Positions 3,410 through 25,975 of a DNA stretch of 25,975 nucleotides are shown piece by piece. The notes below the pieces were generated by a model. The model was not told the origin of the DNA, made no database searches, and saw only the letters and a program-made list of their open reading frames with translations. How positions within the stretch are numbered: position 1 is the first letter of the stretch; every line of letters starts with the position of its first letter. Source of the DNA: a virus; IMG/VR virus record IMGVR_UViG_3300049456_000180, positions 1 through 25,975 of that record; one strand, given 5' to 3'. A program made the position numbers and the translations under genes.

Positions 3410-3419
3410 GCTCGTCACC

Positions 3420-7264: not shown

Positions 7265-7267
7265 TCC

Positions 7268-7483: not shown

Positions 7484-7486
7484 CTT

Positions 7487-7889: not shown

Positions 7890-7936
7890 CGGTTACGGGC
7901 AAGATCGTATGGCCGCACCTTGTTTGGTTAATTGAA

Positions 7937-8116
7937 ATGGCACGCCGCGCAAGCACGTTTAGGCAACGGGACGTAACCCGCGCTCTTAAAGCGACGGTTG
8001 CGGCCGGTGTCGGCGTGCGTCGCGTCGAAATAGGCAAGGACGGTAAGATCGTTGTCATTACCGGCAGTCCGCAGGACGCGTCGTCGGCCGAGACAATTAA
8101 CGAGTGGGACAAATGA
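7937..8116 (+). CDS. Small hypothetical protein preceding the integrase
   Basis: ATG 7937 opens a 59-residue frame, MARRASTFRQRDVTRALKAT through to EWDK and TGA 8114-8116. The integrase ATG is at 8118, one base after this stop, which implies coupled expression. The layout (basic N-terminus, 'F.Q.D..RALKA...AG', then a short beta hairpin 'VRRVEIGKDGKIVVITG') recurs in small proteins found just upstream of phage integrases in alphaproteobacteria. Their function is unknown to me. An accessory role in recombination or in controlling integrase is plausible by position only. Confidence 0.7.
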   Translation: MARRASTFRQRDVTRALKATVAAGVGVRRVEIGKDGKIVVITGSPQDASSAETINEWDK

Positions 8117-8117
8117 A

Positions 8118-9200
8118 ATGAGGCGCCCTTATCGTCTTCCCCCATATGTCCATGGCTTTGCCGATCGTCACGGAAAGGCGCGGTACTATTTCCGGCGCGA
8201 AGGGTTTGCTCGTGTCGCATTGCCCGGGCTCCCTTGGTCTCCTGCCTTCATGGCGGCACACGAAGCGGCTATGGCGGGCGTGGAGGTGCGCAAAGCCATC
8301 GGTGTGAGTCGTACGTTGCCAGGCAGTGTGAACGCTGCGATCGTGGCCTACTATAATTCGGACGCCTTCCGTGTCGCGCTAAAGCCGACCACGCAAGGAA
8401 TGCGCCGCGCGATCCTAGAGCGCTTTCGCGTTGAGCATGGCGATAAGAGGATCGCGTTCGTGCAAACTCGGCACCTCGTGATCATATTGGCAACTAAGAA
8501 GCCATTCGCCGCCCGAAACTGGCTGAAGACGCTCCGCGGGCTTTTACAATTTGCCGTCGCAGCCGAATTACGCCCGGACGACCCGACGCATGGGATCAAG
8601 CTCGCGCGTGTTAAGAGCGATGGAATCCACACATGGACCGAAGGCCAAATCGAGACGTTTGAGGCCAAGCACAAACCTGGCACTAGGGCCCGTCTGGCGT
8701 TTGCCCTTCTGCTTTACACGGCGCAGCGCCGCGGCGATGTCATTCGCATGGGTCGACAGCATGTTCGGGAAGGCGAAATCGCTGTGCGGCAGGAAAAGAC
8801 CGGTTCGCGTTTATTGATACCGATACACGCTGAACTCCAATCCGCACTCGACAATTGGCCAAGCGAGCATCTGACGTTCCTTACAACAGAACGTGGTGAG
8901 CCGTTCACTGCGGCGGGTTTTGGCAATTGGTTTCGCGATCAGTGCAACGCAGCTGGGCTTCCGAAGGCCTGCAGTGCCCACGGTCTACGTAAGGCCGCGT
9001 GCAGACGCCTCGCTGAGGCCGGGTGCACCGCGCATCAGATTGCCGCGATAAGTGGCCATGTGAGCCTTTTAGAGGTGCAACGGTACACGAAGGCGGCAGA
9101 TCAAGCACAGATGGCCCGCGACGCTATGAGAACTATGTCGGAACAAACGAGAACATCCATTGGCAAACCAGGCCGACGGGTTTGCCAAAATGAGGGCTAA
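8118..9200 (+). CDS. int: Tyrosine recombinase / phage integrase
   Basis: 360 residues from ATG 8118. All catalytic residues of tyrosine recombinases are visible: Arg about 204 in TAQRRGDV, Lys about 227 in RQEKTGSRL, His and Arg about 288/291 in SAHGLRK, His about 314 in ISGHVSLLEVQ, and the nucleophile Tyr about 323 in RYTKAA. The N-terminal 80 residues correspond to the arm-binding/core-binding region of short alphaproteobacterial phage integrases. It cuts and rejoins DNA at att sites to insert or excise the island. The gene ends 32 bp from the 3' end of a convergent tRNA-Arg gene, the classic integrase-tRNA arrangement, so the island's right boundary is inside or beside that tRNA. An in-frame start upstream at 8052 would overlap the small gene and is less likely. 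Confidence 0.93.
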   Translation: MRRPYRLPPYVHGFADRHGKARYYFRREGFARVALPGLPWSPAFMAAHEAAMAGVEVRKAIGVSRTLPGSVNAAIVAYYNSDAFRVALKPTTQGMRRAILERFRVEHGDKRIAFVQTRHLVIILATKKPFAARNWLKTLRGLLQFAVAAELRPDDPTHGIKLARVKSDGIHTWTEGQIETFEAKHKPGTRARLAFALLLYTAQRRGDVIRMGRQHVREGEIAVRQEKTGSRLLIPIHAELQSALDNWPSEHLTFLTTERGEPFTAAGFGNWFRDQCNAAGLPKACSAHGLRKAACRRLAEAGCTAHQIAAISGHVSLLEVQRYTKAADQAQMARDAMRTMSEQTRTSIGKPGRRVCQNEG

Positions 9201-9232
9201 GGCATTGAAGAATATGCGTTTGCGTTTAACGA

Positions 9233-9309
9233 TGGCGACCCCGATTGGATTCGAACCAACGACCTACAGATTAGGAATCTGCCGCTCTATCCTGCTGAGC
9301 TACGGGGTC
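9233..9309 (-). tRNA. tRNA-Arg (anticodon CCT), probable attachment site
   Basis: Reading the minus strand from 9309, the acceptor GACCCCG pairs with CGGGGTC, followed by G73 and an encoded CCA (9233-9235). The D arm GTAGCTCAGC, the anticodon stem GCAGA/TCTGT closing the loop TTCCTAA (anticodon CCT, reading AGG), and the T loop GGTTCGAATCC are all present; total 77 bases. The 3' end faces the integrase gene, so the 3' half is the likely attB/attR core. No second copy of this 3' segment is present in the window, so the other att site should lie to the left, beyond the IS630 fragment. Confidence 0.93.
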
Positions 9310-9341
9310 TTCAAGGGGTTAGGGGGGAAACGCTAGATCAT

Positions 9342-9388
9342 TTGTCTCCGCATTGTCTCACATCCGAAAGTTTGTCAGTAGTTGTCTA
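9342..9388. repeat. Four TTGTC direct repeats beside the tRNA
   Basis: TTGTCTC at 9342 and 9353, TTGTCAG at 9372 and TTGTCTA at 9382 lie in the same orientation with start-to-start spacings of 11, 19 and 10 bp, roughly one or two helical turns. They occupy the gap between the 5' end of the tRNA and the next gene. They could be protein-binding sites, for example integrase arm sites or a tRNA upstream element; short motifs can also recur by chance. Confidence 0.35.
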
Positions 9389-9438
9389 TCCGAGCCTCGC
9401 TCGGTTGAGAACTGAGGGCAGGCTGTGCGGCCTGCGAA

Positions 9439-9660
9439 TTAGTGAATAGCATTGGTCGTTCGATAGCCCGCAGCGCGATGCCTCGCGATCCGCAGTTGCA
9501 GAAGCTTACGAACGTCGTTCTTTCCCAGCGACTCGCCGTCATTGTTGAACCGAGATACCGCGAGGTCGAGGACAAACTGGGATATGATCGCCGCCTCCTC
9601 GCCACCGGCATCTCCGAGTAGCTCAACGGCGTCCTTCAACTCTTCGATGCTAAGCTGCAT
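9439..9660 (-). CDS. Small hypothetical protein
   Basis: A 73-residue frame from ATG 9660, selected because GGAG stands eight bases upstream; an in-frame GTG at 9669 has no such site. It begins MQLSIEELKDAVELLGDAGG and continues with helical, charged segments (EEAAIISQFVLDLAVSRFNN). No membrane segment or known motif is seen. It lies between the tRNA and the VirD4-like gene, on the strand of the latter, 167 bp beyond its stop. Helical composition and the ribosome-binding site support a real gene, but no family is recognised. Confidence 0.5.
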   Translation of the reverse strand: MQLSIEELKDAVELLGDAGGEEAAIISQFVLDLAVSRFNNDGESLGKNDVRKLLQLRIARHRAAGYRTTNAIH

Positions 9661-9827
9661 GGCTCGCACTCCGTTGGCGGGGTAACCTCCGACAGATTGT
9701 TCGAACCATCAAAACGCGTCAACCAAAAACACTTTTGCCGTCCAAGTTGCCGGCGAGATACGCTGTACTTGGTTGCCAGATAGGGCCTCACGAGTCTCGG
9801 GCTTTTGGCTCGGGACCAAGTCCGCGT

Positions 9828-10997
9828 CTAGGGCGTAAGCGTCGTGGCGCTGAAGGGCTTGGAAGGCTCGCCGTCGATCATGAGTCGCAAATAGATGTGG
9901 TGATTGGGCAAACGGATGAGATTCTCGGCAGCGAACACCGGCTCGAACTCCCGTGCGAGGTAGGAGGCGTCTTCGGCCCCCACTCGAAACGAAATGAGTG
10001 TGCCGGCATTTCCAAGAACCGCACGGCGAACGTCCGGTTCAAGTTGATGGAAATACTGGTGGGCAAGAACAAGTCCGATCCCGTATTTACGCAGCTCGGC
10101 CGTCATATTGGCGACGCTTAAAGTCGTGAAGGTCTGGAATTCATCGATGTAGACGTAGAAGGGTCGCCGCTGATCTTCTGGACGGGAAGCCCGGCTGAAG
10201 GCCCCCAGCGAAATCGCCGTCAAGATCAACCCACCGGCAAGACCGGCGCTATCGGCGCCGATCTGTCCTTTGGCGAGATTCACGATGAGAATTTTGCCTT
10301 CGTCCATGAGCTGGCGGAAGCGCAAAGGTCGTTCCGGTTCGACGAAAAAACGGTATAGGCGCCGGTCGGCCAGAAAGGCCCCGACCTTGTTCTGAATTGG
10401 CGCGATCGCTTCCGCCTGATAGCGATAAGTGTATTTCGGATACTCGGTGCGCCAGAATATACGAACCTGCTCATTGGCCGTATTGGCGAGGACACGCTGC
10501 CGGAATGATTTGTCCGCATAGAGGCGAAGAATGTCGGCGAAGTTCGCCTCCGGAAAGTCCAAGAGCGCGAGCAGGGTGTTGCGCAGGATATGTTCCATGC
10601 GCTGGCCCCATGCGTTGGGCCACATCTTCTCAAAGAGTTCCATGATGCCCGAAGAGACGAGGCTCCGCCGTTCGGGCGAGACATGGGTGAGCGGATTGTA
10701 TCCGTAAGGCTGCGCCGGATCGGGAAGATTGACATAGACAAGATCGTGCTGACGCCAGGGCGGAACCCGTGCTACAACCCGCGCCGCCAGATCGCCATGG
10801 GGGTCGATGAGCGCACAGCCGCGCCCTGCCGTTACATCCTGCTCAAAGAGAGTCTCGAGCAACGTCGATTTTCCCGTTCCGGTCTTACCGATCACATGCA
10901 TATGGGCAAGCCGGTCGGCTTGTTTGATGCCGAACGGAGTGTGTCTGGCTCGCGCATTCGTAACGGCGAAATACGAAACGGTGTGATCGTGCTCCAT
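9828..10997 (-). CDS. VirD4/TraG-type (HerA-like) conjugative transfer ATPase
   Basis: A 389-residue protein with Walker A GKTGTGKST at residues 37-45 and Walker B FYVYIDEFQTF at about 280-290. The N-terminal segment HTPFGIKQADRLAHMHVIGK and the C-terminal TAELRKYGIGLVLAHQYFHQ with ISFRVGAEDASYLAREFEP fit the soluble type IV secretion/conjugative DNA-transfer ATPases. Such ATPases form rings that move DNA or present substrates to a secretion channel. Unlike classical VirD4 it has no N-terminal membrane helices, which is usual for this shorter group. No relaxase or channel genes are nearby, so any transfer would need partners elsewhere. It lies downstream of parB, separated by a terminator, on the same strand. 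Confidence 0.85.
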   Translation of the reverse strand: MEHDHTVSYFAVTNARARHTPFGIKQADRLAHMHVIGKTGTGKSTLLETLFEQDVTAGRGCALIDPHGDLAARVVARVPPWRQHDLVYVNLPDPAQPYGYNPLTHVSPERRSLVSSGIMELFEKMWPNAWGQRMEHILRNTLLALLDFPEANFADILRLYADKSFRQRVLANTANEQVRIFWRTEYPKYTYRYQAEAIAPIQNKVGAFLADRRLYRFFVEPERPLRFRQLMDEGKILIVNLAKGQIGADSAGLAGGLILTAISLGAFSRASRPEDQRRPFYVYIDEFQTFTTLSVANMTAELRKYGIGLVLAHQYFHQLEPDVRRAVLGNAGTLISFRVGAEDASYLAREFEPVFAAENLIRLPNHHIYLRLMIDGEPSKPFSATTLTP

Positions 10998-11084
10998 CCT
11001 CCGAAGCTACGCGCATGGCGCGCAAAATCAGGACGTGAGAAAGATCGGTGCCCGGACCATTCTTTATCTTGGATGAGGATCGAC

Positions 11085-11114
11085 AAAAAAAGACCGGCAC
11101 GTAGAGTGCCGGCC
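11085..11114 (-). terminator. Intrinsic terminator after parB-like gene
   Basis: On the minus strand GGCCGGCAC (11114-11106) pairs with GTGCCGGTC (11100-11092), nine pairs with one G-U, around a five-base loop, followed by seven T residues (11091-11085). It begins ten bases after the parB-like stop and would end that transcript before the VirD4-like gene. Confidence 0.85.
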
Positions 11115-11123
11115 CAGTCTTAC

Positions 11124-13022
11124 TCATTCAGCCATCGCCGCTGCCCTAACATCATCCCTTGAACCATCGTTCGCCACAGGAGTTCTTAGCGGTTCCGGAA
11201 TCCACCGGCTCTCGCCAAGGAGCGTCTCCGCGCTCTCGCTCATCTGGCTCTTCTTAAGGTCCTCAAGGCGCTGCGCCGCTTCAGGCGATGCGCCTTCGGA
11301 AACGGCTTTCGTGATCTGATCCTTCGTCACGCGGTCGAAGAATCCTACCGCCGTGGGTCGCCACCAATCGGCCATGTCGAGCGAAATCGCACGGGCGAGG
11401 ACGTCGGCATGGGCGAAACGTTCTCTCCCTGCTTCTCGCCGGTGAACCGCATCGACTGTCACCGCGGTGCAATACGCAAGAAGTTCAAGACGGAGGGAAG
11501 GCTCCATCTGTTCCAACCAAACCCAGAGTTCCGCTCTTTCGGGCAGACGCTCAAGCCATCGGTTGTGCCGGGCAAGGAGCGCCTCCGCCGCTTTGCTCTG
11601 GCCCACTGTCTGGGAGAACTTCCCGAGGTCTACGAGCGTGGGTGTTATCTCAGCGCAGCCCTCGCCATGCCCGTGGAAGAAAATGCGTACCACGAGTGCG
11701 TGAAGCAGCACGACAAGCGCCCACTCCGGCTGGCCCGCAAGAACTTCCCGCAAGGCCGCCGTCCGGTGCGCCGACAGATCGACGAGGAGCGATTCCGAAT
11801 ACCCGTTGGAAGTTTTTTCGTTCGTGGCGGCCTGAGTCTCAGACCGCCGCGTGCTTTCTCCCGCCGGCTCTCGTTCTTCCGGCTTCACAAGCCCGCGATC
11901 GGCTTGCAGATTGCCGTCATAGCCGAGGCTAATCACAACTCCGGCGTGGCTCTTTTCTTCTTCCGGCCAGACTTCTTTCCTGGCCCGAAGCGAATCTAGT
12001 TCGACCGATACGCGGTCGAGCTCGGTAGAGGCCCCATCGTCTTCTTCGTCCTCGATCGCGGCCACAAGCTCGTCATAGCGCTCGCACAGAACGTTGAGAC
12101 GGGCTTCCTCTTCATCGGCGAGTGTGACCTCAGTCATCTTGATCCGGCCGAAGCGAGAGAGATGGTTGAAGTCGGTCTCTTGCATGATTTCCACCCAGCC
12201 CCAGCCGTCGGTTTTGACCGTTTCCGCCTCCGCTTGAAGCTTCTCTGCCACCAGGCGGTCGAGAAGCTGACTGTCCGTGAAATACCCCTCGTCTTCGGGC
12301 TGGAAGAGATCGCGGACGATGATGCCGCCCGCTTCCTCGTATGCTTTGGCCCCGATGAATCGGGCCCTCCTATCCCCACCTTCCACATGCGACTTGGTGA
12401 GGAAGCGCCGGATCGCTTGGGGCGAGGAATCCCCATAGGGGTTCTCGAACCAGAATTCCTCCTGTGCCTTGCGATCGTCCGAGATCGTGAAGGCCATGAG
12501 TTGTTCAAGCGTCATCGCACCCAAACGGTATTCCGCCACCAGACGCGAGGAGACCGTGGCAAGCTTCAGGCGCTGAAGCACGATGGTCGCCGAGAGGCCA
12601 AACCGGGCCGCAATGTCCTCGGTGGGGAGGCCTTCCTTCTGAAGCTTGGCGAAAGCATCGAACTGATCGGCCGGATGCAGCGGAGCCCGGATGATGTTCT
12701 CGGCCAGGGAGACTTCCGTTGAATCTCCGTCTCGCTGATTCTCCAGAATCAGACACGGAACCGGGTGATCGCGGGCGATCTTCTTGCGCTTTGCGAGAAG
12801 CTTGAGCGCCGCAAGCCGCCTTCCGCCGGCGACGACTTCGTAGGTGTTCGGTTCGACGGCGTTAGGATTCTCCTCCTGCCGCACGATAAGGTTTTCAAGA
12901 ATGCCCATCGACTCGATGCTTGCGGCCATCTGTTCGATGTCCGCCAGCGGTTCGGTCTTCCGGATGTTGGCCTTGGACCGCTTCAATTGGCAAAGCGGAA
13001 TCGTCATGAGCTGGTTGCCCAT
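11124..13022 (-). CDS. ParB/RepB/Spo0J-type partition protein (long form)
   Basis: A 632-residue protein with AGGAG seven bases before ATG 13022. The N-terminal ParB domain is clear: IPLCQLKRSKANIRK, VVAGGRRLAALK at about residue 65 (the ParB/Srx box I, CTP-binding in canonical ParB), VSLAENIIRAPLHPADQF (box II), then a helix-turn-helix EDIAARFGLSATIVLQRLKL. Canonical ParB is about 300 residues; here residues about 200-630 form an additional acidic, partly coiled domain (ERYDELVAAIEDEEDDGAST). Long ParB-like proteins of this kind occur on plasmids and integrative elements. No ParA neighbour is present, so it may be a nuclease-type or regulatory ParB rather than part of a segregation system. 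A 13-bp palindrome lies 49 bp upstream of its start. Confidence 0.88.
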   Translation of the reverse strand: MGNQLMTIPLCQLKRSKANIRKTEPLADIEQMAASIESMGILENLIVRQEENPNAVEPNTYEVVAGGRRLAALKLLAKRKKIARDHPVPCLILENQRDGDSTEVSLAENIIRAPLHPADQFDAFAKLQKEGLPTEDIAARFGLSATIVLQRLKLATVSSRLVAEYRLGAMTLEQLMAFTISDDRKAQEEFWFENPYGDSSPQAIRRFLTKSHVEGGDRRARFIGAKAYEEAGGIIVRDLFQPEDEGYFTDSQLLDRLVAEKLQAEAETVKTDGWGWVEIMQETDFNHLSRFGRIKMTEVTLADEEEARLNVLCERYDELVAAIEDEEDDGASTELDRVSVELDSLRARKEVWPEEEKSHAGVVISLGYDGNLQADRGLVKPEEREPAGESTRRSETQAATNEKTSNGYSESLLVDLSAHRTAALREVLAGQPEWALVVLLHALVVRIFFHGHGEGCAEITPTLVDLGKFSQTVGQSKAAEALLARHNRWLERLPERAELWVWLEQMEPSLRLELLAYCTAVTVDAVHRREAGRERFAHADVLARAISLDMADWWRPTAVGFFDRVTKDQITKAVSEGASPEAAQRLEDLKKSQMSESAETLLGESRWIPEPLRTPVANDGSRDDVRAAAMAE

Positions 13023-13070
13023 CGTCGTTCTCCTGATTGTTAGAGATGGTTGGAAGCGTCACGCGGGCCG

Positions 13071-13083
13071 CCGGTACTACCGG
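13071..13083. promoter_or_regulatory. 13-bp palindrome upstream of parB-like gene
   Basis: CCGGTA-C-TACCGG is a perfect palindrome in the 246-bp gap between the parB-like gene (minus) and the ParD-like antitoxin (plus). Position suits an operator or a parS-like site for the divergent genes. I do not recognise it as a known parS. The rest of the gap shows no gene. Confidence 0.4.
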
Positions 13084-13256
13084 ATGGGCTAACGCAGTGA
13101 CACCGATATGGACCTGCAAAGAACAGGTTCCGCATCCATGGTCGCGAAAGTTTGGTGCCGGGGATAGACGTGGAAATGATCGGAAAAAAGAGCATTACGT
13201 GACGCAAGGGCTTGCGCCGCGCGTCTGGGACATGGTGTCTCGAGAGGGCGCTATGC

Positions 13257-13262
13257 TATACT
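13257..13262 (+). promoter_or_regulatory. Putative -10 element of the toxin-antitoxin operon
   Basis: TATACT lies six bases before ATG 13269. If used, transcription would start at or next to the ATG, giving a leaderless mRNA; consistent with this, no Shine-Dalgarno sequence precedes the antitoxin. No convincing -35 hexamer is visible at the usual spacing. Confidence 0.35.
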
Positions 13263-13268
13263 GTCGAT

Positions 13269-13523
13269 ATGAACCAGAAACCCACAATTACGCTTTCAGA
13301 GGACGCTCAGGCGCTGGCAGAGAAGCGTGCGCGCGAAGAAGGTTTCGATTCAGTCGATGCTTATATCGACGCTCTGATCGAAGAGGATGGGCAGACCGGG
13401 ACAATCCGGGGCTGGATGCGCGAACGTCTTGAACAGGGCATCGGTTCTCCAACAGCAGGTGAGCTTACCGAAAGCAAATTGCAGCGCCTCGTCGGCGAAG
13501 GCATCGCCCGCGTCTCGCGCTAG
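13269..13523 (+). CDS. ParD-like ribbon-helix-helix antitoxin
   Basis: An 84-residue protein from ATG 13269. PTITLSEDAQALAEKRAREEGFDSVDAYIDALI has the beta-helix-helix pattern of ParD/CopG antitoxins at residues 4-40, and the C-terminal part (IRGWMRERLEQGIGSPTAGE) matches the flexible toxin-binding tail of ParD. It neutralises the ParE toxin encoded three bases downstream and, by analogy with the family, represses the operon with it. Such pairs stabilise mobile elements by killing cells that lose them. The upstream -10 sits so close to the ATG that a leaderless transcript is possible. Confidence 0.88.
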   Translation: MNQKPTITLSEDAQALAEKRAREEGFDSVDAYIDALIEEDGQTGTIRGWMRERLEQGIGSPTAGELTESKLQRLVGEGIARVSR

Positions 13524-13526
13524 GGC

Positions 13527-13841
13527 ATGATCCGCCGGATCACCACGACCGAGGCGGCGGATGCTGATATCCGTGACATCGCGACCTACATTGCCTTCGA
13601 TAACGAGCACGCCTCCAGGAAATTTGGAGCGGAATTATGGGAGAGTTTTCAACGGATCGCCGAAAATCCAGAAATCGGCCATATTGTTGCGGAGTTTAAC
13701 GAACTCCGTGTATTGCGTGTCTCGAACCGATTTCGGAGATACTTGGTCTTCTACCGTTCTCTCGACGCTGAGACCGTGGAGGTCGTCCGCGTCCTTCATG
13801 GCGCTCGCGACATCACATTACTGGTTCGCGACATCCCCTGA
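13527..13841 (+). CDS. ParE/RelE-superfamily toxin
   Basis: A 104-residue protein with the ParE layout: ITTTEAADADIRDIATYIAF (first strand and helix), then RVLRVSNRFRRYLVFYRSLD and VEVVRVLHGARDI, the 'Y.VFY' and 'V.VLHG.RD' signatures of ParE. ParE toxins poison DNA gyrase, whereas RelE members cut mRNA; the C-terminal signature favours ParE. ATG 13527 follows the antitoxin stop by three bases, so both are translated from one mRNA with antitoxin first. The gene is full length for the family (about 95-105 residues) with no evident damage. Confidence 0.9.
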   Translation: MIRRITTTEAADADIRDIATYIAFDNEHASRKFGAELWESFQRIAENPEIGHIVAEFNELRVLRVSNRFRRYLVFYRSLDAETVEVVRVLHGARDITLLVRDIP

Positions 13842-13903
13842 AGCTGGAGCTAGGCCCCATGGAAAGCCGTCACACGCCGATCGTTCTTGATACTGGAAAG
13901 ATG

Positions 13904-15460
13904 TCACAAAGCCGCAGCTTTTTCACTACTTTGAGCGTTCTGCCCGTAGCCCTTAGAATGCGCGATGATGGTTGCGACCAAGCGATTCACCCTTAATGCG
14001 AAAGTTCGATGTTTGATCCGCTTAGGTCCACCCGCGGTGACAACGTCATCAAAAACAAGGCTGTTGAAGGGATTTGCCCAAGTAACTGCAACGTTTTTCT
14101 GGCACACGGTCAGGTTCGATACTGTGTCTTTTAGGATTTCGCGCAATTTGTCGTCATTTTCCAAATTAGGCAGGTTTCCCAACGTTTTTATGAGTTCGAT
14201 ACTTTTTTCAACCCGCAGCCGGATTCCGTCGTCGCCGGCTTCTATAGAGGCCTTGCTGGAGGTGAGTGTTGCCCGCTCGCCCAACAATTGCTCTTTGCGC
14301 GCGAGATAGGTTTCGCGATCCACCATCTGATCGACATAGGCGTCCGTAAGCCGGCCCAGTCGCTCGTCAATGGCGCTTGTTGCAAGGGACAGATTTTGCA
14401 GCTCGGCAGCCGCGTCCGTCTTGCGATGTGCAAGGACCGTCTCGATGTCGGCTTTGACCGCGGTCCACTCTTCTTCGGTCAAGGAAAAGGATTCGGCCGC
14501 GGCCCGCAATTTTCCGTCAATGACCTCTTCTCTTAGACATGTCGTAGGGCACGTCGGTGTCGCGCACCGGTAGTAGACGTGCCCCTTTCTTCGCGAAGCG
14601 GTGAGGGAACGGCCGCAAGTAGAACACTTAAGCGTCCGCTGGTAACGGAAGCGATGGATATTCGCCTTATGGGTTGTCCTCCCCCCGAGGATCTCTCCCA
14701 CGCGGTCAAAGAGGGCCTTTCCGACCAATGGTTCATGGACTCCTTGGAAGACCTCGCGTGTTTTCTCGATCCTGATTAGCCCAACGTAGAACGGGTTATT
14801 GAGAGCGGTAGACCACCCGTTTCGCGTGACCCGGCGTCCTTTCCTGGGCCGCAGTCCGCGGGAATAGAGCTCCTGGCTCAGCGTTTCGAGAGACCACTGC
14901 CCTGTAGCGTAGAGGGCGAAGGCCTTCGCGACGAGTGGCCCGCGCACCGGGTCGATGGTTTTGGGCTGCCCCCCTCCTTGGTCGAGATACCCGAGCGGTG
15001 CCTGTAGCGGATAGAGCCCTTGTTTCAGACGCCCGTAGAATCCCTTTTTTACCTCGTCGCGCAGATTGCGGATGTAATCGGCGGCGACGACTGCCTGGAT
15101 GTCGGCGGAGAGTCGGCCACCGCGCGAGCTGAGGTCGATACTCTCATGCGCGAAATGCAACTCGATGCCGCGGTCGACCAACTCTCCCAACATTGCCCAA
15201 TCGCGAAGGTTGCGGGCACTGCGGTCTATCTTGTGCGTGATCACCCCGGCGGCGAGCCCATGCTCAAGGCCTTTGACCATCTTGATGAAAATCGGACGGC
15301 CCTGCTTGGCAGCCGTCTCCTTTTCCTCGAACCATTCGGTGATTGCGAGATTGTGGCGCCGTGCGTATGCATCAATTGCCGCTTGTTGTTCTTGCAGGCT
15401 TGAGCCTTTCTCGCCCTGCTTCACGGTCGAGACACGGATATACGCGAAATATTTTTTCAT
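13904..15460 (-). CDS. Large serine recombinase
   Basis: A 518-residue protein. YIRVSTVKQGEKGSSLQEQQ holds the nucleophile Ser11 of the resolvase/invertase domain (1-145), with the active-site region ITHKIDRSARNLRD at about 74-87. A recombinase domain (about 150-260, PFYVGLIRIEKTREVFQGVH) and a zinc ribbon (Cys 279, 282, 299/304, 308) follow, then a coiled-coil-rich segment (about 325-400), matching phage- and ICE-type large serine integrases. These integrate and excise DNA between short att sites. Its ATG overlaps the stop of the small upstream gene (ATGA, 15457-15460). It is the second recombinase in the window and probably mobilises, or once mobilised, the block containing parB, VirD4-like and helicase genes. 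Confidence 0.93.
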   Translation of the reverse strand: MKKYFAYIRVSTVKQGEKGSSLQEQQAAIDAYARRHNLAITEWFEEKETAAKQGRPIFIKMVKGLEHGLAAGVITHKIDRSARNLRDWAMLGELVDRGIELHFAHESIDLSSRGGRLSADIQAVVAADYIRNLRDEVKKGFYGRLKQGLYPLQAPLGYLDQGGGQPKTIDPVRGPLVAKAFALYATGQWSLETLSQELYSRGLRPRKGRRVTRNGWSTALNNPFYVGLIRIEKTREVFQGVHEPLVGKALFDRVGEILGGRTTHKANIHRFRYQRTLKCSTCGRSLTASRRKGHVYYRCATPTCPTTCLREEVIDGKLRAAAESFSLTEEEWTAVKADIETVLAHRKTDAAAELQNLSLATSAIDERLGRLTDAYVDQMVDRETYLARKEQLLGERATLTSSKASIEAGDDGIRLRVEKSIELIKTLGNLPNLENDDKLREILKDTVSNLTVCQKNVAVTWANPFNSLVFDDVVTAGGPKRIKHRTFALRVNRLVATIIAHSKGYGQNAQSSEKAAAL

Positions 15461-17688: not shown

Positions 17689-18209
17689 TTGGAGGACAAC
17701 ATTCCGAACTCGTGCTTGCCATTCAACCGTTTACCCGCGGTTACGCCTTCGCCCTCTTCGAGGGACCGCTTTCGCCGATCGATTGGGGCATCAAGGAGGT
17801 CCGGGGAGGAAACCGCAACGCCCGCTGCCTTGCCGCCGCCGAGACGTTGATCGCACGCACGCGCCCGGATGCCCTGGTGCTTGAAGATTATACCGGCTCC
17901 TTCGCCCGGCGTTCGCGCCGGATCAAGAGACTGCAAAGCCTCATAACCAACCACGCGGCGGGTCAATCCATTGACGTGCGCCACTACCCTCGCGAGTGCA
18001 TTCGTGATTGCTTCAAAGCTGTGGGCGCCGTCACACGCTACGAAATCGCCCAAGCCATCGCTGCCCGAGTGCAAGCCTTCGAGAACAGATTGCCGCCCGT
18101 ACGCAAATTATGGGAGCCGGAAGATCCGAGGATGGCGCTCTTCGATGCCGCGTCGCTCGTTATGTCCCATTACAGCTTGCCCCGTTCGCAATCCTCGGAC
18201 GATGCCTAA
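17685..18209 (+). CDS. RuvC-fold (RNase H-like) protein with altered first motif
   Basis: A 174-residue protein with the segment order of RuvC-like nucleases: ELVLAIQPFTRGYAFALFEG (first strands; RuvC has 'IDPG..TGY' here), DALVLEDYTG with Glu67 on the second catalytic strand, a basic stretch RRSRRIKRL, and EDPRMALFDAASLVMSHY with acidic residues near 147-154 on the last helix. RuvC cuts Holliday junctions using four acidic residues; here the first, normally Asp, is Gln14. Similar proteins with His or another residue at this place occur on mobile elements, and their activity is unclear to me. It is coupled to the XRE regulator by ATGA overlap. It could be a junction-binding or otherwise specialised member. 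Confidence 0.7.
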   Translation: MIGGQHSELVLAIQPFTRGYAFALFEGPLSPIDWGIKEVRGGNRNARCLAAAETLIARTRPDALVLEDYTGSFARRSRRIKRLQSLITNHAAGQSIDVRHYPRECIRDCFKAVGAVTRYEIAQAIAARVQAFENRLPPVRKLWEPEDPRMALFDAASLVMSHYSLPRSQSSDDA

Positions 18210-18231
18210 CGCTCATTGGTTTCCCGGGCAT

Positions 18232-18263
18232 GCGGGAGCGCCGGAATGGTCCGGCGTTCCCGC
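18232..18263 (+). other. 14-bp hairpin between RuvC-like and ArdC-like genes
   Basis: GCGGGAGCGCCGGA (18232-18245) pairs with TCCGGCGTTCCCGC (18250-18263), 14 pairs with one G-U and the four-base loop ATGG. No T-tract follows, so it is not a standard intrinsic terminator. It ends seven bases before the GGGAGA ribosome-binding site of the ArdC-like gene and may stabilise or separate the mRNA segments. Confidence 0.55.
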
Positions 18264-18282
18264 TGTTCTCGGGAGATCGAAT

Positions 18283-19203
18283 ATGAATAGTCCTGTTCTT
18301 TCAGAATCGAAGTTCAATGTTTACGGCTCCGTTACAGAAAAGATCGTGGAGGCGATCCGCAAGGGCGTCGGAACGTACACGATGCCTTGGCATGGCGGCG
18401 GGCCCGCCATTTGCATCCCTGTCAACGCCGCCACCGAGGCGCCGTATCGCGGCGTCAACATCCTGGCGTTGTGGGCGGTGGCAGCGATCGAAGGATACGA
18501 GTCTGGTCAATGGGCGAGCTACCGTCAGTGGCAGTCGCTCGGTGCACAGGTACGAGGGGGAGAACGAGGCTCCATCATCGTCTTCGTCAAGGAGATCGAA
18601 GGTGCCGAGAAGGATAAAAAGGAGGAGGAGGGAGAACGCCCCCGACTCGTTGCACGCGCATACCGGGTCTTCAACGCCGCTCAGGTGGAGGGTTGGGAGT
18701 CACCACCGCCAGCGCGCATCCCCGAGTTTTTTGCCATCAAGGAGATCGACGCGTTTGTACAGGCCACAGGCGCAAATATTCGTCATGGAGCTCCCATGGC
18801 GAGATATCACCCGAAGGAAGACTTCATTGAGATGCCGGATCGCGAGCGCTTCATCGGGAGCGCCACGAGTACATCAACGGAGACCTACTATTCGGTTCTC
18901 TTGCATGAATTGACGCACTTCAGCGGGGCGTCTCACCGCCTCAATCGTCAATTTGGTGCCCGGTTTGGCGACCGTGCCTATGCGATGGAGGAGTTGGTCG
19001 CAGAACTTGGTGCGGCGTTTCTCTGCGCTGCTCTCGGTATTGCCAATGAGCCGCGCCAGGATCATGCAGCCTATGTGGCGTCATGGCTTGAAGTTCTCGA
19101 CCACGATCACAAGGCAATCTTTATGGCAGCGAGCCAAGCCCAGAAGGCCGTGGAGTACCTTGCACAACTCGCCAAAGCCAACAATTGGCGGATCGGGGTT
19201 TAA
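18283..19203 (+). CDS. ArdC-like antirestriction protein (DUF1738 / zincin-like)
   Basis: A 306-residue protein from ATG 18283, with GGGAGA six bases upstream; open frame further upstream overlaps the RuvC-like gene and is not used. Residues 10-135 match the ArdC N-terminal single-strand-DNA-binding domain (VTEKIVEAIRKGVGTYTMPW; PYRGVNILALW; WASYRQWQSLGAQVRGGERG). Residues 145-300 form a zincin-like metallopeptidase domain: HELTH at 208-212 and EELVAELGAAFL at 236-247 provide the zinc ligands and catalytic Glu. ArdC-type proteins protect incoming DNA from host restriction after conjugation. It ends the rightward operon and is followed by a terminator 17 bases later, supporting an element with a conjugative history. 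Confidence 0.9.
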   Translation: MNSPVLSESKFNVYGSVTEKIVEAIRKGVGTYTMPWHGGGPAICIPVNAATEAPYRGVNILALWAVAAIEGYESGQWASYRQWQSLGAQVRGGERGSIIVFVKEIEGAEKDKKEEEGERPRLVARAYRVFNAAQVEGWESPPPARIPEFFAIKEIDAFVQATGANIRHGAPMARYHPKEDFIEMPDRERFIGSATSTSTETYYSVLLHELTHFSGASHRLNRQFGARFGDRAYAMEELVAELGAAFLCAALGIANEPRQDHAAYVASWLEVLDHDHKAIFMAASQAQKAVEYLAQLAKANNWRIGV

Positions 19204-19282: not shown

Positions 19283-20881
19283 CTAAAGTCTGATCGCAGG
19301 GAGTTCCACAAAGAACGTCGACCCGTGCCCCGAACCTTTGGATTCAGCCCATATCCGGCCGCCGTGAGCGGCCACCAGTTGCGCTGCCACATATAGGCCA
19401 AGACCGGTGCCAGACGCGTTGGTCCGTGCCGCGTCTTCGGCGCGCGAGAATTTCTGAAACAGCTTCTTGAGGGTACCGGCGTCGATACCAATGCCAGAAT
19501 CCGTGATTGAAAGCAGCAAAGTGCCTGCCGTCGATTTCTGCTCGAGTCTAACCTGGATTGTCCCTTGCGGCGTGTATTTGATCGCATTGTCGATGAGGTT
19601 GGAGACGACCTGGGCCATCTTCCCAGCGTCGAGTTTGGCGAGATAGGGCATGCCAGTATCTGCATTAAACAAGAGAATCAGTTTGGCGTCGTTGGCCAAC
19701 CGGGTCATTTCCTCGACGACGCGGGCGACAACCGCTTTGAAGTCTCCAATCCGGAAATCGTATTTCATGCGTCCCAATTCGATTCGAGAGACGTTCAGAT
19801 AGTCTTCGATCACGGAAGCGAGCGCCTGGCCGCGATCTGCAATGCGGCCGGCAGCCTTTGCGGCTTCGCTGGAAAGCGCCCCGTACGTGCCATCCCTGAG
19901 ATTTTCGGCATAGCCGCGGATCACCGTGACGGGGCTTCGGAGCTGGTGCGTTGCGATCGACAGGAATTCGGTCTTGGCTTGGTCGAGTTCCTTCAGCCGA
20001 ACGTTGGCGAGAGCAAGATTTTCGCGCGCCCGCACTTCGAGCTTTATGCTTCGAAGCAGAAGTACCCCTATTGGGACGGACACGGCCAAGAGGAGACTGT
20101 TCGTCAGTCGCTCATTTGCACTTTCGGCGAGCAAAACGCGGACAAAGACGAAGAGCCAAAGAGCGAAGACCAGAACCTCGGCGATAATCGCCTTGGGGCT
20201 GAACAGTTTGTAGCGGAAGACGCTATAGACGATGACGACGGCGAAGATCGATGTGAAGACCGGACCCGTCCAGATGTATCGGAAATCCCTCAAGAATGGC
20301 GAGATCAGAACGAGATTGTAGTACATGCCGATTGCGCCGATCGGCGTAACGCTGGCGCCGACAGCGAGCAGTTGTCGCCGAATCTGGCCGGTTGCGTTCA
20401 AATATTTCCACCACAGGCGGATCTGTGCCCCGACAAAAAGACCAGAGAAGGCTGCGGCGAAGATCAGGTAAGCGACAGTCTCAAGCGTTACCTCGCGGCC
20501 CCAGGCGTGATGTATGACGCTGCCCGTCAGCAAATGCGGGGTAAGAAGGGCAATGCAAAGAAGCGTCGTCCCCCAAGTGAGCACCCGCCCATGCCAGCGC
20601 GCCGGCCTTTGATCCTCCGGGAACACGAGCGAGAAATAATAGTAGCAACCGGCAATCAATGCGGCTGAGACGTAGGAAAGTTTCAGGAACCATATCGCGG
20701 CGGCATCTGAACTTACCGTGAGGAATCCCAGGATCGACAGGGACCACGCGCTCAGGAATAGCGTGAAAAGCGCGAACGAGACATTGATCCGGCTTGACCG
20801 GTTCTCGCTATATATAAAAGCTGTGACGCCGAAGTTTATGACGGCGGTTGTCGCAAGGAGTGTTGTGTGGAGATCGAGCAT
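19283..20881 (-). CDS. Membrane sensor histidine kinase with 7TM-type N-terminus
   Basis: A 532-residue protein. Residues 1-280 hold about eight hydrophobic segments in the pattern of histidine-kinase N-terminal 7TM domains, giving an integral inner-membrane sensor. A short helix (about 280-305) leads to the HisKA domain, with the phosphoacceptor His312 in FLSIATHQLRSPVT. The ATPase domain shows NLIDNAIKYT (N box, 428-437), DSGIGI (G1, 461-466) and GTGLGL (G2, 491-496), ending normally with GSTFFVELP. It would autophosphorylate and pass phosphate to a response regulator, but none is encoded nearby, so it is an orphan kinase. No receiver domain is present. The start lacks a clear ribosome-binding site, so the exact N-terminus is uncertain. 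The signal is unknown. Confidence 0.92.
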   Translation of the reverse strand: MLDLHTTLLATTAVINFGVTAFIYSENRSSRINVSFALFTLFLSAWSLSILGFLTVSSDAAAIWFLKLSYVSAALIAGCYYYFSLVFPEDQRPARWHGRVLTWGTTLLCIALLTPHLLTGSVIHHAWGREVTLETVAYLIFAAAFSGLFVGAQIRLWWKYLNATGQIRRQLLAVGASVTPIGAIGMYYNLVLISPFLRDFRYIWTGPVFTSIFAVVIVYSVFRYKLFSPKAIIAEVLVFALWLFVFVRVLLAESANERLTNSLLLAVSVPIGVLLLRSIKLEVRARENLALANVRLKELDQAKTEFLSIATHQLRSPVTVIRGYAENLRDGTYGALSSEAAKAAGRIADRGQALASVIEDYLNVSRIELGRMKYDFRIGDFKAVVARVVEEMTRLANDAKLILLFNADTGMPYLAKLDAGKMAQVVSNLIDNAIKYTPQGTIQVRLEQKSTAGTLLLSITDSGIGIDAGTLKKLFQKFSRAEDAARTNASGTGLGLYVAAQLVAAHGGRIWAESKGSGHGSTFFVELPAIRL

Positions 20882-20986
20882 AATGAGGCGGCACTGTGCC
20901 CGAAGGCGCGGTGCCGATCTCAGTATACCGTGCTAGCAAGCGTGTCCGATCGTTCGAAGTTGAACAAGCAGGCCACCATATCGTGG

Positions 20987-21625
20987 TCAACCGGTTAGCT
21001 GTTCTCTCGGCAACAACGTGTAGATAATTTTGTCGAGTGTCCCTATTTTTCCGCCGTCGACAAAGGCGCAGCCGTCCACGAAGTAGAGTTTCAAACGTGC
21101 GCCTTGAAGCGTGACTTTGATCAGCACGTCTACCGGCGCGGTGACAAGCTCCTTCGCAAGAGCTTTGGATGCACCCGCTCCAATTGCGATAGGAGCTTCG
21201 TGCGGCTGAGCGTGAAGGCTCGCCAATATGATTCCAGTTTGGGCCATTGCCTTGCAAAGCTCGATAAGCGGAACAATCGGCTTCGTCGGAAAGTGGCCTG
21301 CGCTGCGTTCAATAGTGATGCGTGCCAGACCAAGAACCGTATGATTGCCAATAGCAACGGCGCGCTCGATAAAGAAAAACGGGGCTCGTTCGAGCATCAA
21401 CTCTTCAATGTCGCTCAGCTTCAGGAACCGGGGCTCTTCGGTCCCGAATAGGTCCTCGTCGTCGGGAAGCTGGACGCCCAGAAACGTTTCGATCGCCGCG
21501 CGCCTGAGCATATCGGTTTCGAGGGCCGAATTGGCCGTATTTCCAAGCGATTGAGGCCGCGCCGCCGTATCAATGGCCGCAGCGGCGGCTACGTCTTCCC
21601 CTCGAAATGACACACTGCACCCCAC
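20987..21625 (-). CDS. FabZ/FabA-like hot-dog-fold protein lacking the catalytic Glu
   Basis: Up to 212 residues. LSDIEELMLERAPFFFIERA and ERSAGHFPTKPIVPLIELCK followed by AMAQTG align with the 3-hydroxyacyl-ACP dehydratase FabZ (substrate-binding 'PFL..DR' and catalytic 'GHFP..PI.PG.L..EAMAQ'). The catalytic His is present (111 in GHFP), but the position of the catalytic Glu is Lys125, and the conserved Gly after 'PI.P' is Leu. Dehydratase activity is therefore doubtful; binding of an acyl-ACP or acyl-CoA remains possible. The first 60-80 residues are an added extension. Start is uncertain: GTG 21625, GTG 21613 or ATG 21511 are all in frame, the last omitting most of the extension. It lies upstream of the histidine kinase on the same strand, 105 bp away. 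Confidence 0.65.
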   Translation of the reverse strand: MGCSVSFRGEDVAAAAAIDTAARPQSLGNTANSALETDMLRRAAIETFLGVQLPDDEDLFGTEEPRFLKLSDIEELMLERAPFFFIERAVAIGNHTVLGLARITIERSAGHFPTKPIVPLIELCKAMAQTGIILASLHAQPHEAPIAIGAGASKALAKELVTAPVDVLIKVTLQGARLKLYFVDGCAFVDGGKIGTLDKIIYTLLPREQLTG

Positions 21626-21814: not shown

Positions 21815-22423
21815 CTACAATGCGGCTACCTTAATTTCGTCCACCTTTGACACAGTTCGTTCCCATGCCCCAGCTCCTTTCTGCGAAGTACGCTCTCTGG
21901 CTACCTCCTGATCCAGAACGATAAGGGGGAACCGATGTCGCTGCGCATACTCATTGACGTTGTCTAGTAGGGCTCGTAGTCCGGTTATCCTGTCGGTGAA
22001 CACGATGGGACCTCTCAAATTCACCATCCGCTCGCGAAGTCCGGGAAAGTCGCCGTCATACGCATAGAAAACATCTTCGTATGAGCGCGAACCCGCATTC
22101 CATCTCCGGACTTTCTTGACCTTAGTTACATCCTCCCAGCCAATGAACTTGAGCACTCGTCCAAAATTGCGAGACGCGATCCCCCTATCACTTACGATAA
22201 TGGAGGAGCACATCAAAGAGCCAAACACACTTAGAGAGATGAACCACGCTGCAACTAGTATGCAAAGCACCCCAAAAACATAGCTGTGCTCGCTGATCGC
22301 AAACACTCCCACACCAAAGCAAAACAGTGACAGCCCTGGTATGCCGAGGTAAGTCATCACCATTTGTGATTGCGGATATTCGTACTGTGCGGATGCTTCG
22401 TTGTCGCCCATCGCCGCACTCAT
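21815..22423 (-). CDS. Two-helix membrane protein with PH-like domain; candidate immunity protein of the RHS protein
   Basis: A 202-residue protein. Its ATG overlaps the RHS stop as ATGA (22420-22423), so translation is coupled. Residues about 25-43 and 48-70 are two hydrophobic segments separated by a short polar turn, predicting a membrane hairpin. The following soluble part (SSIIVSDRGIASRNFGRVLK, then FIGWEDVTKVKKVRR up to about residue 165) has the strand-rich 'I.VSDRGI....FG....I.WEDV..V' pattern of bacterial PH-like domains. Hand counts of three 60-base lines here give 47-57% GC, against 67-70% for two lines of the RHS core, suggesting separate origin. In polymorphic toxin loci the gene directly after the toxin is usually its immunity gene; that role is inferred from position only. 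Confidence 0.72.
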   Translation of the reverse strand: MSAAMGDNEASAQYEYPQSQMVMTYLGIPGLSLFCFGVGVFAISEHSYVFGVLCILVAAWFISLSVFGSLMCSSIIVSDRGIASRNFGRVLKFIGWEDVTKVKKVRRWNAGSRSYEDVFYAYDGDFPGLRERMVNLRGPIVFTDRITGLRALLDNVNEYAQRHRFPLIVLDQEVARERTSQKGAGAWERTVSKVDEIKVAAL

Positions 22424-25400
22424 TTTCTTGCCGGACCGCAGCCCACACCAACGGAGCAGGTTGTGCCCAATGTCCCCATCGTGCCGAAAATCGCGCTGTT
22501 CGCACTCAGAGTCGCATCAGGCAGCAGGCCAACGCCCCCGACAGCCGCGAAGGGAGCCTCCACGATGCCGGATAACCCACCAACTATCGCTCCGGTCTCA
22601 ATTTGCCCTACGCTTGGCAGTCCGCCATTTATCATGGCCCCGTTGACTGTTGCGGCGGCTCCGCCGGCGGCATTGACCACAGTGAATGTGGTTGCGCCAA
22701 CCGCGACACTGCCTACACCAGCTCCACCGACCAATCCCGTCGTATAGCTTACTGCTAGAGGATTGAGTGTTCCAATCGCTGTGCCAATCGCCGCGCCACT
22801 GGCAGCTCCCAAAGCAGTTCCCAGTAGCGTGCCCGTTTGGTGATATCCCGCAATCGCACCACTAATCGCTCCTCCCACTGCCCCTATTGCCGCAGTCACC
22901 CCCGCTGCTGGACAAGCCACGATGCATGCGCCCGCCGCTAGGCCGCCTCCGATTATCCGGTTGCCGATTTGCTGGGCCTGGGCAGCGCCTTCAGCAGTAT
23001 ACGTTCCACACGTACCCGCAAGGACGCAATTGTTGATTGTCCCTGTTGGATCGGTGTTATTGACGGGGTCGTTTCCGGCATACGCATAGAGATTCACGCC
23101 GCCGGCATAGCCGATGGGGTCCGGCTGGAAGAAGCGTCCCAGCGCCGGCGAATACATCCGCGCGCGGTAGTAATAGAGCCCGCTCGGCTCGGCCGTGCTG
23201 CCGGCGGTCTCGGCATCGAAGCGCCGCCCGGTGTAGAGATAGCTGCCGCTCGTGAGACCGGGATTTTCGCCATAGGGCTGGAATCCCGTCTTTGTCAGTG
23301 TCCCGCTCGAATCGAGCGTGGCGACGACCGAACTCTGAACGTCGGGAACCATCGTTTGCCGCGTGCCGCCCGGCACGTTCATGCGGTTCAGCGGCTCGTC
23401 GATCCCGAGCCCATAGGCATACCAAGTCTGGATCGCCCCGGCGGCCCCGGTGTACTCCACGACCTCGCGGTTGTCCGCGTCCGTGACGTAGAGCGTCGTC
23501 GTGCCGCCGAGCGTCCTGCTCTTGCGCCGCCCCTGCGCGTCATAGGCATAGGTGGCAATGGTCGTCATGCCCTGCGTAATGCCGGTCAGCCGGTTCTCCG
23601 CGTCGTAGCCATAGGTGTAGGTCCCGTCATAGGTGAGGTTGCCGTCGGCGTCGTAAGTCGGCGTCACCGCGCCCACCGCGGAATACTGGTTGAGGTTGTT
23701 CGCCGTGTAGCTCTTCGAGCTCGGGCCGGCCGGATAATTCCACCAGCTCTTGTCGGTCGCGCTTTGGTTCACCCGCCGGTTGGTCGCATCATAGCTGTAG
23801 GTGAATCCGGCGGTGCTGGACGAAGGCGTCGTCTGCGCCGGCGCAGGTGTCCACGATGCGCTGACGGGGCGATTCAGCGCATCGTAGCTGTAACTGGCGC
23901 TGTAGCTCACCGTTCCGCCGGAGGGCGGCAGGGCAGCGGTCACCGCCGCGCCGTTGTCGGTGAATCCCGCTGGCCTGCCGGCAAGATCGTAGTTGAACCA
24001 TGTTGTCGGATTGCCGGATGACGTCGCGGAACACGCCGTCGGCAACGTGGCGATGGCCTTGGTGCAGACGCGGTTCAGCGTGTCATAGGTGAAGCTGATG
24101 GTGTCGCCCTTGCGCGTAACGCGCGAGGCGACGTTGCCGTCGGAATCATAGGCTAGCGTCTCCTTGTCCGTGCCACCGTCGGGATAGGTGGTGGTGGCGA
24201 GCCGGTCCAAGCCGTCATAGGCGAAGCTCGTCGCGTGGCTGGCGGCGTCAGTCAGGCTCGCCAGCAATCCGTCTGCCGTGTAGGCCTGCTGCACCAGCGC
24301 GCCGCTCTGGATCGCCGTATTGAAGAGCGCGGTTTGCCGGCTCATCGAATCATAGCTGTAGCTCGTCACATTGCCGATCGCATCGGCAATGCTCGACAGC
24401 CGGTCGACCGAATCATAGCTGGACCGCGTGACATTTCCATTGGCGTCCGTCGCCGTTGCGACCTTCCCAGTCGGCGTGTAGCTCGAACTTACCGTGCGCA
24501 GCACTGTGCCGCTCGCCGATTGCTGCGTCTGCAGCAGCCGCCCATCCGGGTCGTAGCTGAACGCGGTGACGAGACGGCCGGGCGTGGACGATGTTGCCGG
24601 CGCAGTCGTGCTGGCTAGGCGCCGGTCCGCATCATAGGCGTTTGTGGTCGAATTCCCGTTCGGATCGGTCACCGATGCGACATCGCCCGCTGCGCTAAAT
24701 CCGAACGTGGTGATCTGAATCAAACCGGCGGAATCGCGCGTGACCGATATCCGGTTTCCGAGCCCGTCATAGGCATACGCCGTCACTACGCCGAGCGGAT
24801 CTGTGGCGGTCAGCACCTGACCGGTGCTGTTGTAGGTGAAACTCGTCTTGGCGTTGAAATGCGGCGACGACCCGACATCGGCAGTGGTCGTCAGAAGGTT
24901 CCCGGTCGCGGAGTCGTAACGCATCGCGGTGACGAGCCCGAGCGGATCGGTCACGCTGATCGGCTTGTTGTAGATCGGATCGTAGCTGTAGCTCGTGCTC
25001 ACCGCCGAAAGCGGCGATCCCAATTTGGGAGTATTCGTGATCTGAATGACGTTATGCTCGAGATCCGGCGAATATGTATAGCCGGCCGTGCCACCCTCGG
25101 GGGCTTTGGCAAGCGTCAAGCGATCCTGTCCGTCATATTGGTTGCTCGCGACGTTGACGATTCCATTCTGTTGCGCTGTATCGTTGAACACGTTCCCGAA
25201 GGTGCCGCTCAATACCAATGCGCGCGAGAGCACTTTTCCGCGCGGCGTCTGATAAGTGACCTCGCGGTCTCCCGCCGGATCGATGGTCTCGGTGCGGGAA
25301 CCGGCGATGTAGAACGCCGTCGAATTGCCGAACGCATTCGCCTGTTGGCTGACCCTGCCAAGGCCGTCATAGCCATTGGTCACGAAAGCGTTTGTGGGAT

Positions 25401-25975
25401 TGCTGGGATAGAATATCTGCGTCAAATGGCCGGCCGATCCGTCATAGACAAAATTGGTTTTGTAGCTGAGTGGGTCGGTATAGCTCGCCAGATTGCTGCT
25501 GCTGTCATAGCCGAAGGCGATCGACCGGCCGGTATCGTCAGTTACCAAATTCACATGGGGGCCGCTATATCCCAAAGTCAGGCTGCGGCCGATATTGTCG
25601 GTGACACTCGTGAGATAATTCGTACCGCTATAGGTATAGTTGTAAGCGAAGTTCACGTTCATCCCGTATGGCATGGTCCAGCTCGCGAGCGAGCCCGTCA
25701 GGGAAGAATTCAGCGTGTTAAAGGAAAGCAGCGACTGATCCTTGTTGCGGTATGTAAAGATCGTGAAATTCCCATAGGAATCCGGCGAGCTTCCGGTCAG
25801 GGTCACCGCCGAACCGAGCGGAGGATTATACGCGGCGCTTGAGCTTCCATCGGCGTGCGGAAGAAATACGAACTCCTCGCTGCTGCCCGGCCACGAAACC
25901 GTGACCGCATTGTTGGTGAGCTGATCGGTCAGCCAGCGACCCACCACCCATGGGATGGTCAGATGCTGCGCATCC
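22420..25975 (-). CDS. RHS/YD-repeat protein, probable polymorphic toxin (5' end outside window)
   Basis: The frame is open to the window edge, so the N-terminus is missing; at least 1,184 residues are encoded. Dozens of YD repeats are visible (YDGLGNRISVTRD, YDADRRLASTT, YDSVDRLSSI, YDALNRPVSA and others), the strand-turn units that build the hollow RHS shell. The conserved core end is at about 23160-23040: YSPALGRFFQPDPIGYAGGV, NLYAYAGNDPVNN, then DPTG. After it comes a variable tip of about 206 residues, rich in Gly and Ala with GxxxGxxxG spacing (GTALGAASGAAIGTAIG) and ending in two Cys and a basic tail (CSVGVGCGPARK). The tip has no nuclease or deaminase motif I recognise, and its hydrophobic small-residue pattern suggests membrane insertion. 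Secretion route is not visible in the window. Confidence 0.9.
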   Translation of the reverse strand, partial: DAQHLTIPWVVGRWLTDQLTNNAVTVSWPGSSEEFVFLPHADGSSSAAYNPPLGSAVTLTGSSPDSYGNFTIFTYRNKDQSLLSFNTLNSSLTGSLASWTMPYGMNVNFAYNYTYSGTNYLTSVTDNIGRSLTLGYSGPHVNLVTDDTGRSIAFGYDSSSNLASYTDPLSYKTNFVYDGSAGHLTQIFYPSNPTNAFVTNGYDGLGRVSQQANAFGNSTAFYIAGSRTETIDPAGDREVTYQTPRGKVLSRALVLSGTFGNVFNDTAQQNGIVNVASNQYDGQDRLTLAKAPEGGTAGYTYSPDLEHNVIQITNTPKLGSPLSAVSTSYSYDPIYNKPISVTDPLGLVTAMRYDSATGNLLTTTADVGSSPHFNAKTSFTYNSTGQVLTATDPLGVVTAYAYDGLGNRISVTRDSAGLIQITTFGFSAAGDVASVTDPNGNSTTNAYDADRRLASTTAPATSSTPGRLVTAFSYDPDGRLLQTQQSASGTVLRTVSSSYTPTGKVATATDANGNVTRSSYDSVDRLSSIADAIGNVTSYSYDSMSRQTALFNTAIQSGALVQQAYTADGLLASLTDAASHATSFAYDGLDRLATTTYPDGGTDKETLAYDSDGNVASRVTRKGDTISFTYDTLNRVCTKAIATLPTACSATSSGNPTTWFNYDLAGRPAGFTDNGAAVTAALPPSGGTVSYSASYSYDALNRPVSASWTPAPAQTTPSSSTAGFTYSYDATNRRVNQSATDKSWWNYPAGPSSKSYTANNLNQYSAVGAVTPTYDADGNLTYDGTYTYGYDAENRLTGITQGMTTIATYAYDAQGRRKSRTLGGTTTLYVTDADNREVVEYTGAAGAIQTWYAYGLGIDEPLNRMNVPGGTRQTMVPDVQSSVVATLDSSGTLTKTGFQPYGENPGLTSGSYLYTGRRFDAETAGSTAEPSGLYYYRARMYSPALGRFFQPDPIGYAGGVNLYAYAGNDPVNNTDPTGTINNCVLAGTCGTYTAEGAAQAQQIGNRIIGGGLAAGACIVACPAAGVTAAIGAVGGAISGAIAGYHQTGTLLGTALGAASGAAIGTAIGTLNPLAVSYTTGLVGGAGVGSVAVGATTFTVVNAAGGAAATVNGAMINGGLPSVGQIETGAIVGGLSGIVEAPFAAVGGVGLLPDATLSANSAIFGTMGTLGTTCSVGVGCGPARK

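Follow-up and report, generated by a model that had tools for sequence, protein, structure and literature searches.

Pore-forming RHS tips have seldom been studied, and Tse5 of Pseudomonas aeruginosa is the main example. Its C-terminal domain, Tse5-CT, forms pores and depolarises, and Tsi5, which has two transmembrane (TM) regions, reverses the effect (PMC9637101). Another studied case is EsxX, a glycine-zipper toxin with the membrane immunity ExiCD, the genes of which are also found as orphans (PMC12744356). PMC11580447, citing PMC8657885, further describes membrane PH-domain proteins that act in immunity to, or transport of, leaderless, membrane-active bacteriocins. Pore-forming RHS tips escape profile searches because their sequences are of low complexity and diverge fast.

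Here we analysed an RHS gene and its neighbour in the IMG/VR record IMGVR_UViG_3300049456_000180, the whole 25,975 bases of which are referred to as the window. Positions 172-15460 look like a prophage remnant fused with plasmid- or ICE-like genes and hold phage packaging and head genes (terminase GpA, lambda-type portal, head protease/capsid; 172-7264), a tyrosine integrase (8052-9200), a ParB-like gene (11124-13022), a large serine recombinase (13904-15460) and a fragment of a TraD-like ATPase. An ArdC-like antirestriction protein, with ArdcN and zincin-like metallopeptidase domains, is encoded at 17971-19203. The RHS pair is located at the far end of the window, and its membership in the phage is not a given. 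The host appears to be alphaproteobacterial, although not with certainty, judging from ParB and from some relatives of the RHS protein.

The RHS gene, its tip and the overlapping partner gene

The RHS open reading frame (1184 aa; 22420-25974, minus strand) has its 5' end open at the record edge. Its core (23041-25974, minus strand) is made of YD/RHS repeats and matches Pfam RHS_repeat (E 1e-57) as well as TIGR03696 Rhs_assc_core (E 2e-21, 76 bits vs a cut-off of 32.5); an RHS polymorphic toxin is characterised by RHS/YD repeats and an Rhs-associated core domain, with a variable tip after them. The core ends in DPIG-X19-DPTG (DPIGYAGGVNLYAYAGNDPVNNTDPTG), the second and last DPTG being encoded at 23041-23052. 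This is a putative aspartyl self-cleavage motif of the form DPxG-X18/19-DPxG, at which cleavage is predicted, and its spacing of 19 is identical to that reported for Tse5 (PMC10684867).

Between the last DPTG and the TGA at 22420-22422 lie exactly 206 residues (22423-23040, minus strand; 22420-23040 with the stop codon), which we predict to be a membrane-acting toxin domain. An earlier note on this DNA had described a Gly/Ala-rich tip of this position and length in which no enzyme motif could be recognised, and this description proved accurate: the tip is 22% glycine and 20% alanine (42% together), seven residues (3.4%) are charged (D/E/K/R), and searches of Pfam, NCBIfam and PHROGs returned no enzyme family and nothing beyond a sub-threshold match to Glycine zipper 2TM (E 0.05). 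The earlier note had also drawn attention to repeated GxxxG spacing. Fourteen such motifs are indeed present, but composition-preserving shuffles contain 9.4 +/- 2.4 of them and 99 of 2000 shuffles reach 14 (p about 0.05), so that the excess over composition is marginal. Because of this the spacing was dropped as key evidence, and the strong signal of the tip is its composition itself. We found no relatives of the tip among plasmids, viral contigs or the 150 RHS tips collected below; its sequence matches in the PDB were at chance level, and a structure model built from the single sequence was of too low confidence to be used (mean pLDDT 34.5).

The RHS stop codon overlaps the start of the next gene by 4 nt (ATGA, 22420-22423, minus strand), the ATG beginning at 22423, and the two genes are likely to be translationally coupled through this overlap. 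The second gene (21815-22423, minus strand) encodes a partner of 202 residues, the predicted immunity protein. Hydrophobic segments at residues 26-44 and 49-67 predict an N-terminal two-helix membrane hairpin (residues 26-67), so that both the overlap and the hairpin are as had been noted before, and so is the lower GC content of the partner gene (51.2% vs 61.3% in the RHS core; the tip has 60.5% and the window 57.9%). The partner directly adjoins the tip and has two predicted TM helices, which is the gene layout of Tsi5. Its soluble part (residues ~73-165) is called PH-like from a motif reading (SIIVSDRGIASRNFGRVLKFIGWEDVTKV ... IVFTDRITGLRALLDNVNEYA), and no Pfam bPH model matched the protein. 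In a poor AlphaFold2 single-sequence model (mean pLDDT 44) the hairpin was the best-predicted region, followed by strands and a C-terminal helix with pLDDT below 50. Matches of the partner to PucR, NF038396 and T6SS_Burk_ExIF (E 0.006-0.24) were rejected as due to chance or to TM composition. Immediately downstream of the partner and on the same strand are genes for a 7TM-type sensor histidine kinase and a FabZ-like dehydratase (19283-21625), the FabZ match being sub-threshold.

Hydropathy of RHS tips and their neighbours

As homology left the question undecided, we surveyed RHS tips. Core ends were collected from 385 alphaproteobacterial and 369 gammaproteobacterial genomes, with a search of genome contigs contributing a few loci from other phyla, and the collection comprises 150 complete tips, 144 of them with an adjacent downstream open reading frame. 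Among the 150, the window tip ranks lowest in charge and highest in mean hydropathy, and a single tip exceeds it in G+A fraction. When the window was excluded, the hydropathy of the last 100 tip residues rose with the number of TM segments in the gene that follows (Spearman 0.36, p 9e-6, n=143), where next genes were picked mechanically, TM segments were called by Kyte-Doolittle thresholds and some of the genomes contributed several loci. Restricted to the 127 loci at which the downstream sequence was long enough, the analysis gave a coefficient of 0.38 for the next gene as against -0.05 (p 0.6) for a gene further downstream. Membrane neighbours accompany hydrophobic tips specifically, at the next-gene position, and tip hydropathy combined with a membrane-protein neighbour flags such tips. 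Low-charge tips lacking a membrane neighbour also exist (e.g., L223, L185 and L047).

As an alternative, the earlier note had proposed that the Gly/Ala region is only a linker whose toxin domain has been lost. It might be the translocation or packing linker found ahead of enzyme toxins in many RHS proteins, in which case a deletion has removed the actual toxin and left the partner behind, unless the partner is unrelated. At L057, L092, L034 and L129 a Gly-rich segment does lie ahead of a soluble, charged toxin domain, and there the next genes are soluble too; a glycine zipper is also required for translocation of the Tde1 DNase of Agrobacterium (PMC10240207). In the window, however, all 206 residues are low in charge and no charged domain comes after the Gly/Ala part, the tip exceeds the survey median in length (206 vs 152 aa), and its neighbour is a membrane protein, unlike the neighbours of enzyme tips. 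A clean in-place deletion must also restore the 4-nt overlap with the partner's ATG, and from the RHS stop to the next genes there is no room for a displaced remnant. Because nothing follows the tip and its stop overlaps the partner, we disfavour the loss of a toxin and consider it unlikely.

The hydropathy association points to the membrane as the site of action or recognition and is silent on pores. It is therefore also consistent with a toxin-immunity pair that acts in another way, for example by way of a tip that sits in the membrane and inhibits an inner-membrane protein, the site of which the partner would occupy. Depolarisation is nevertheless what the nearest analogues with experimental data, Tse5 and EsxX, bring about (PMC9637101, PMC12744356), and non-pore action seems to us improbable.

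The survey also contained a recurrent gammaproteobacterial tip type (L102, L151 and L153), Gly-rich and about 140-150 aa long, with the pattern 'WTG ... [ST]xCxNGxx ... DPxVFxG'. A four-TM protein follows or overlaps these tips in 3/3 loci, and the two are probably another unnamed membrane-toxin/immunity family. In addition, the L133 and L129 tips share a short C-terminal tail, SGGFVLYPxxLNxNMxQxVYSK, on quite different tip bodies, one hydrophobic and the other PD-(D/E)XK-like in appearance; this shared tail perhaps serves in recombination or packing.

Relatives of the partner and recurrence of its outline

The partner has a single clear homologue, L022, from an alphaproteobacterial genome (E 4e-13 in the genome search; 29% identity over 174 aa and E 2e-17 in the pairwise comparison), and because it aligns over 174 residues we take the partner to be a real gene. 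Inspection of translations placed L022 between membrane-bound lytic transglycosylase-like and tRNA-dihydrouridine synthase-like genes, with no RHS. L022 matches the model STM3941_fam (NF041635) at E 5.7e-5 and 23.1 bits, under the curated cut-off of 40 bits, and the partner itself at 11.7 bits. In L245, a member of the STM3941 family with the same outline, a membrane hairpin precedes an 'IxMDExG ... IPWNEI' block, and no RHS gene stands beside L245 either. The wider family of the partner can therefore stand alone. Its homologues are rare, however, not widespread: there was one clear match in the 385 Alphaproteobacteria and, in the 369 Gammaproteobacteria, one weak match with stop codons and none that was convincing, and no relatives were found in plasmids and viral contigs or by a pattern search of genome contigs. 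A PDB sequence search with the two-sequence partner profile returned chance matches. The earlier note had held that wide occurrence of the partner without RHS genes would speak against the pair; L022 is such an occurrence, but a rare one. The profile searches which that note had proposed gave no family for the tip and a weak STM3941 likeness for the partner.

The separate positions of L022 and L245 are what would be expected if the partner were a resident STM3941-related bacterial membrane protein without an immunity role that stands beside the RHS gene by chance. This would leave the ATGA overlap joining the partner to the RHS stop as a coincidence, and three other low-charge RHS tips precede similar TM-plus-soluble partners. 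Partner-type proteins are also rare in genomes, which fits an immunity gene, and in such systems it is common for immunity genes to occur as orphans (PMC12744356). We regard a chance neighbour as very improbable.

An N-terminal TM helix or hairpin with a PH-like-looking soluble part is found in four next genes, those of the window, L133, L142 and L032. When the 144 tips are ordered from the lowest charge upward, the window ranks 1, L032 2, L133 3 and L142 (identical with locus L005) 8. The L133 partner has 178 aa and reads '...ILITDKGIEG...FIAWDKIERVE...IVIYENIKNYIELRRII', whereas the L142 partner has 149 aa and the L032 partner 122 aa with one TM; a truncated locus in an actinobacterium (L020) is similar by eye. 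This set was spotted post hoc, on 144 cases, and a numerical criterion (at least 2 TM and at least 60 further residues) selects the window, L133, L142 and L012, the last of which is unlike the others and has charge rank 137. The outline that these partners appear to have in common is an observation, and their sequence similarity is weak: profile comparisons with the partner gave E 0.0046 for L133, 0.15 for L005 and 0.09 for L245, the E 0.0046 being that of a profile of the window partner and L022 against the L133 partner, at an hhalign probability of 8%. Homology of the partner with the L005 or L133 partners was not significant by BLAST.

These loci may represent a recurrent, unnamed RHS class, one where proteins that combine a membrane hairpin with a cytosolic PH-like part neutralise tips that are hydrophobic and almost free of charge, a generalisation that we put forward tentatively and with considerable doubt. 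If it is true, the PH-like domain would sense or cap the toxin from the cytosolic side once this has inserted, Gram-positive bacteria would counter leaderless bacteriocins by the same solution, and the PH-like fold would be a general immunity device against membrane-inserting toxins. Some predicted immunity proteins bear the extra PH-like part, and its role is directly testable.

Predicted mode of action and comparison with known systems

We consider it probable that the RHS tip inserts into the target's cytoplasmic membrane and makes it leaky, and that the next gene encodes its specific immunity protein. Membrane insertion is the most likely action because of the gene layout and the analogy with Tse5/Tsi5, and a membrane tip with membrane immunity is best supported because the tip has the top hydropathy of the 150, next genes show the TM association and similar partners accompany other low-charge tips. 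Counted against this were the absence of a tip homologue in the searches, the position of the only clear partner homologue away from RHS, the marginal glycine spacing, mean pLDDT values of 44 and 34.5, the low-charge tips without a membrane neighbour, and a PH-like reading that is a motif resemblance. The membrane-acting tip with membrane immunity that the earlier note had suggested thus stood as regards hydropathy, TM association and partner style, while toxicity, pore formation and protection are predictions.

In the proposed mechanism, the hydrophobic tip would sit inside the RHS shell, to be freed upon delivery by self-cleavage at DPxG-X19-DPxG. The released tip would enter the target's cytoplasmic membrane, where helices packed through Gly/Ala may form a depolarising pore or channel. 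The partner would protect within the producer's membrane, its hairpin and cytosolic PH-like part binding the tip there and blocking pore assembly. For the cytosolic part, capping or sensing of the toxin after insertion is conceivable, a role made plausible by the PH proteins of leaderless bacteriocins. Those bPH_2/DUF304 proteins (PMC11580447, citing PMC8657885) are membrane proteins with PH domains that take part in transporting membrane-active peptides or in protecting the producer from them, which would be the likeness to the partner; they differ in belonging to Gram-positive bacteriocin clusters and in that the partner has no Pfam bPH match.

Other known proteins share single features with the locus. 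STM3941_fam (NF041635), a family of uncharacterised membrane proteins, shares the partner's outline of an N-terminal membrane hairpin and, after it, a comparable motif block ([I]xxDxxG ... IxWxxI), but the members seen are not beside RHS. EsxX/ExiCD and TspA/TsaI of the Staphylococcus aureus T7SS also combine a glycine-rich C-terminal toxin with membrane immunity; the toxins depolarise membranes, and orphan immunity genes exist elsewhere (PMC12744356). Unlike the window pair, they use LXG/T7SS carriers and short, defined zippers, and ExiCD and TsaI are polytopic, with no PH-like part as described.

The closest system is Tse5/Tsi5 (RhsP1/RhsI1) of the Pseudomonas aeruginosa H1-T6SS. The earlier note could name no toxin or immunity family resembling either part of the pair, a statement overtaken by Tse5/Tsi5, which is the same kind of system: an RHS shell with DPxG-X19-DPxG, a hydrophobic C-terminal toxin without an enzyme motif and, encoded next to it, an immunity protein that has two TM regions (PMC9637101, PMC10684867). 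In comparison with Tse5, no sequence related to the window tip was detected in the collections searched, and the N-terminus of the window RHS protein lies beyond the record edge. Since the tip had no match to characterised pore-forming tips in PDB chains, Pfam, NCBIfam, PHROGs or plasmid records, calling it Tse5-like would mean only that it may work like Tse5. Unlike Tsi5, the partner has an extra soluble part of ~135 residues after its hairpin. An RHS membrane toxin with membrane immunity is thus of a known kind, and what is unusual in this variant is the soluble domain added to the predicted immunity protein.
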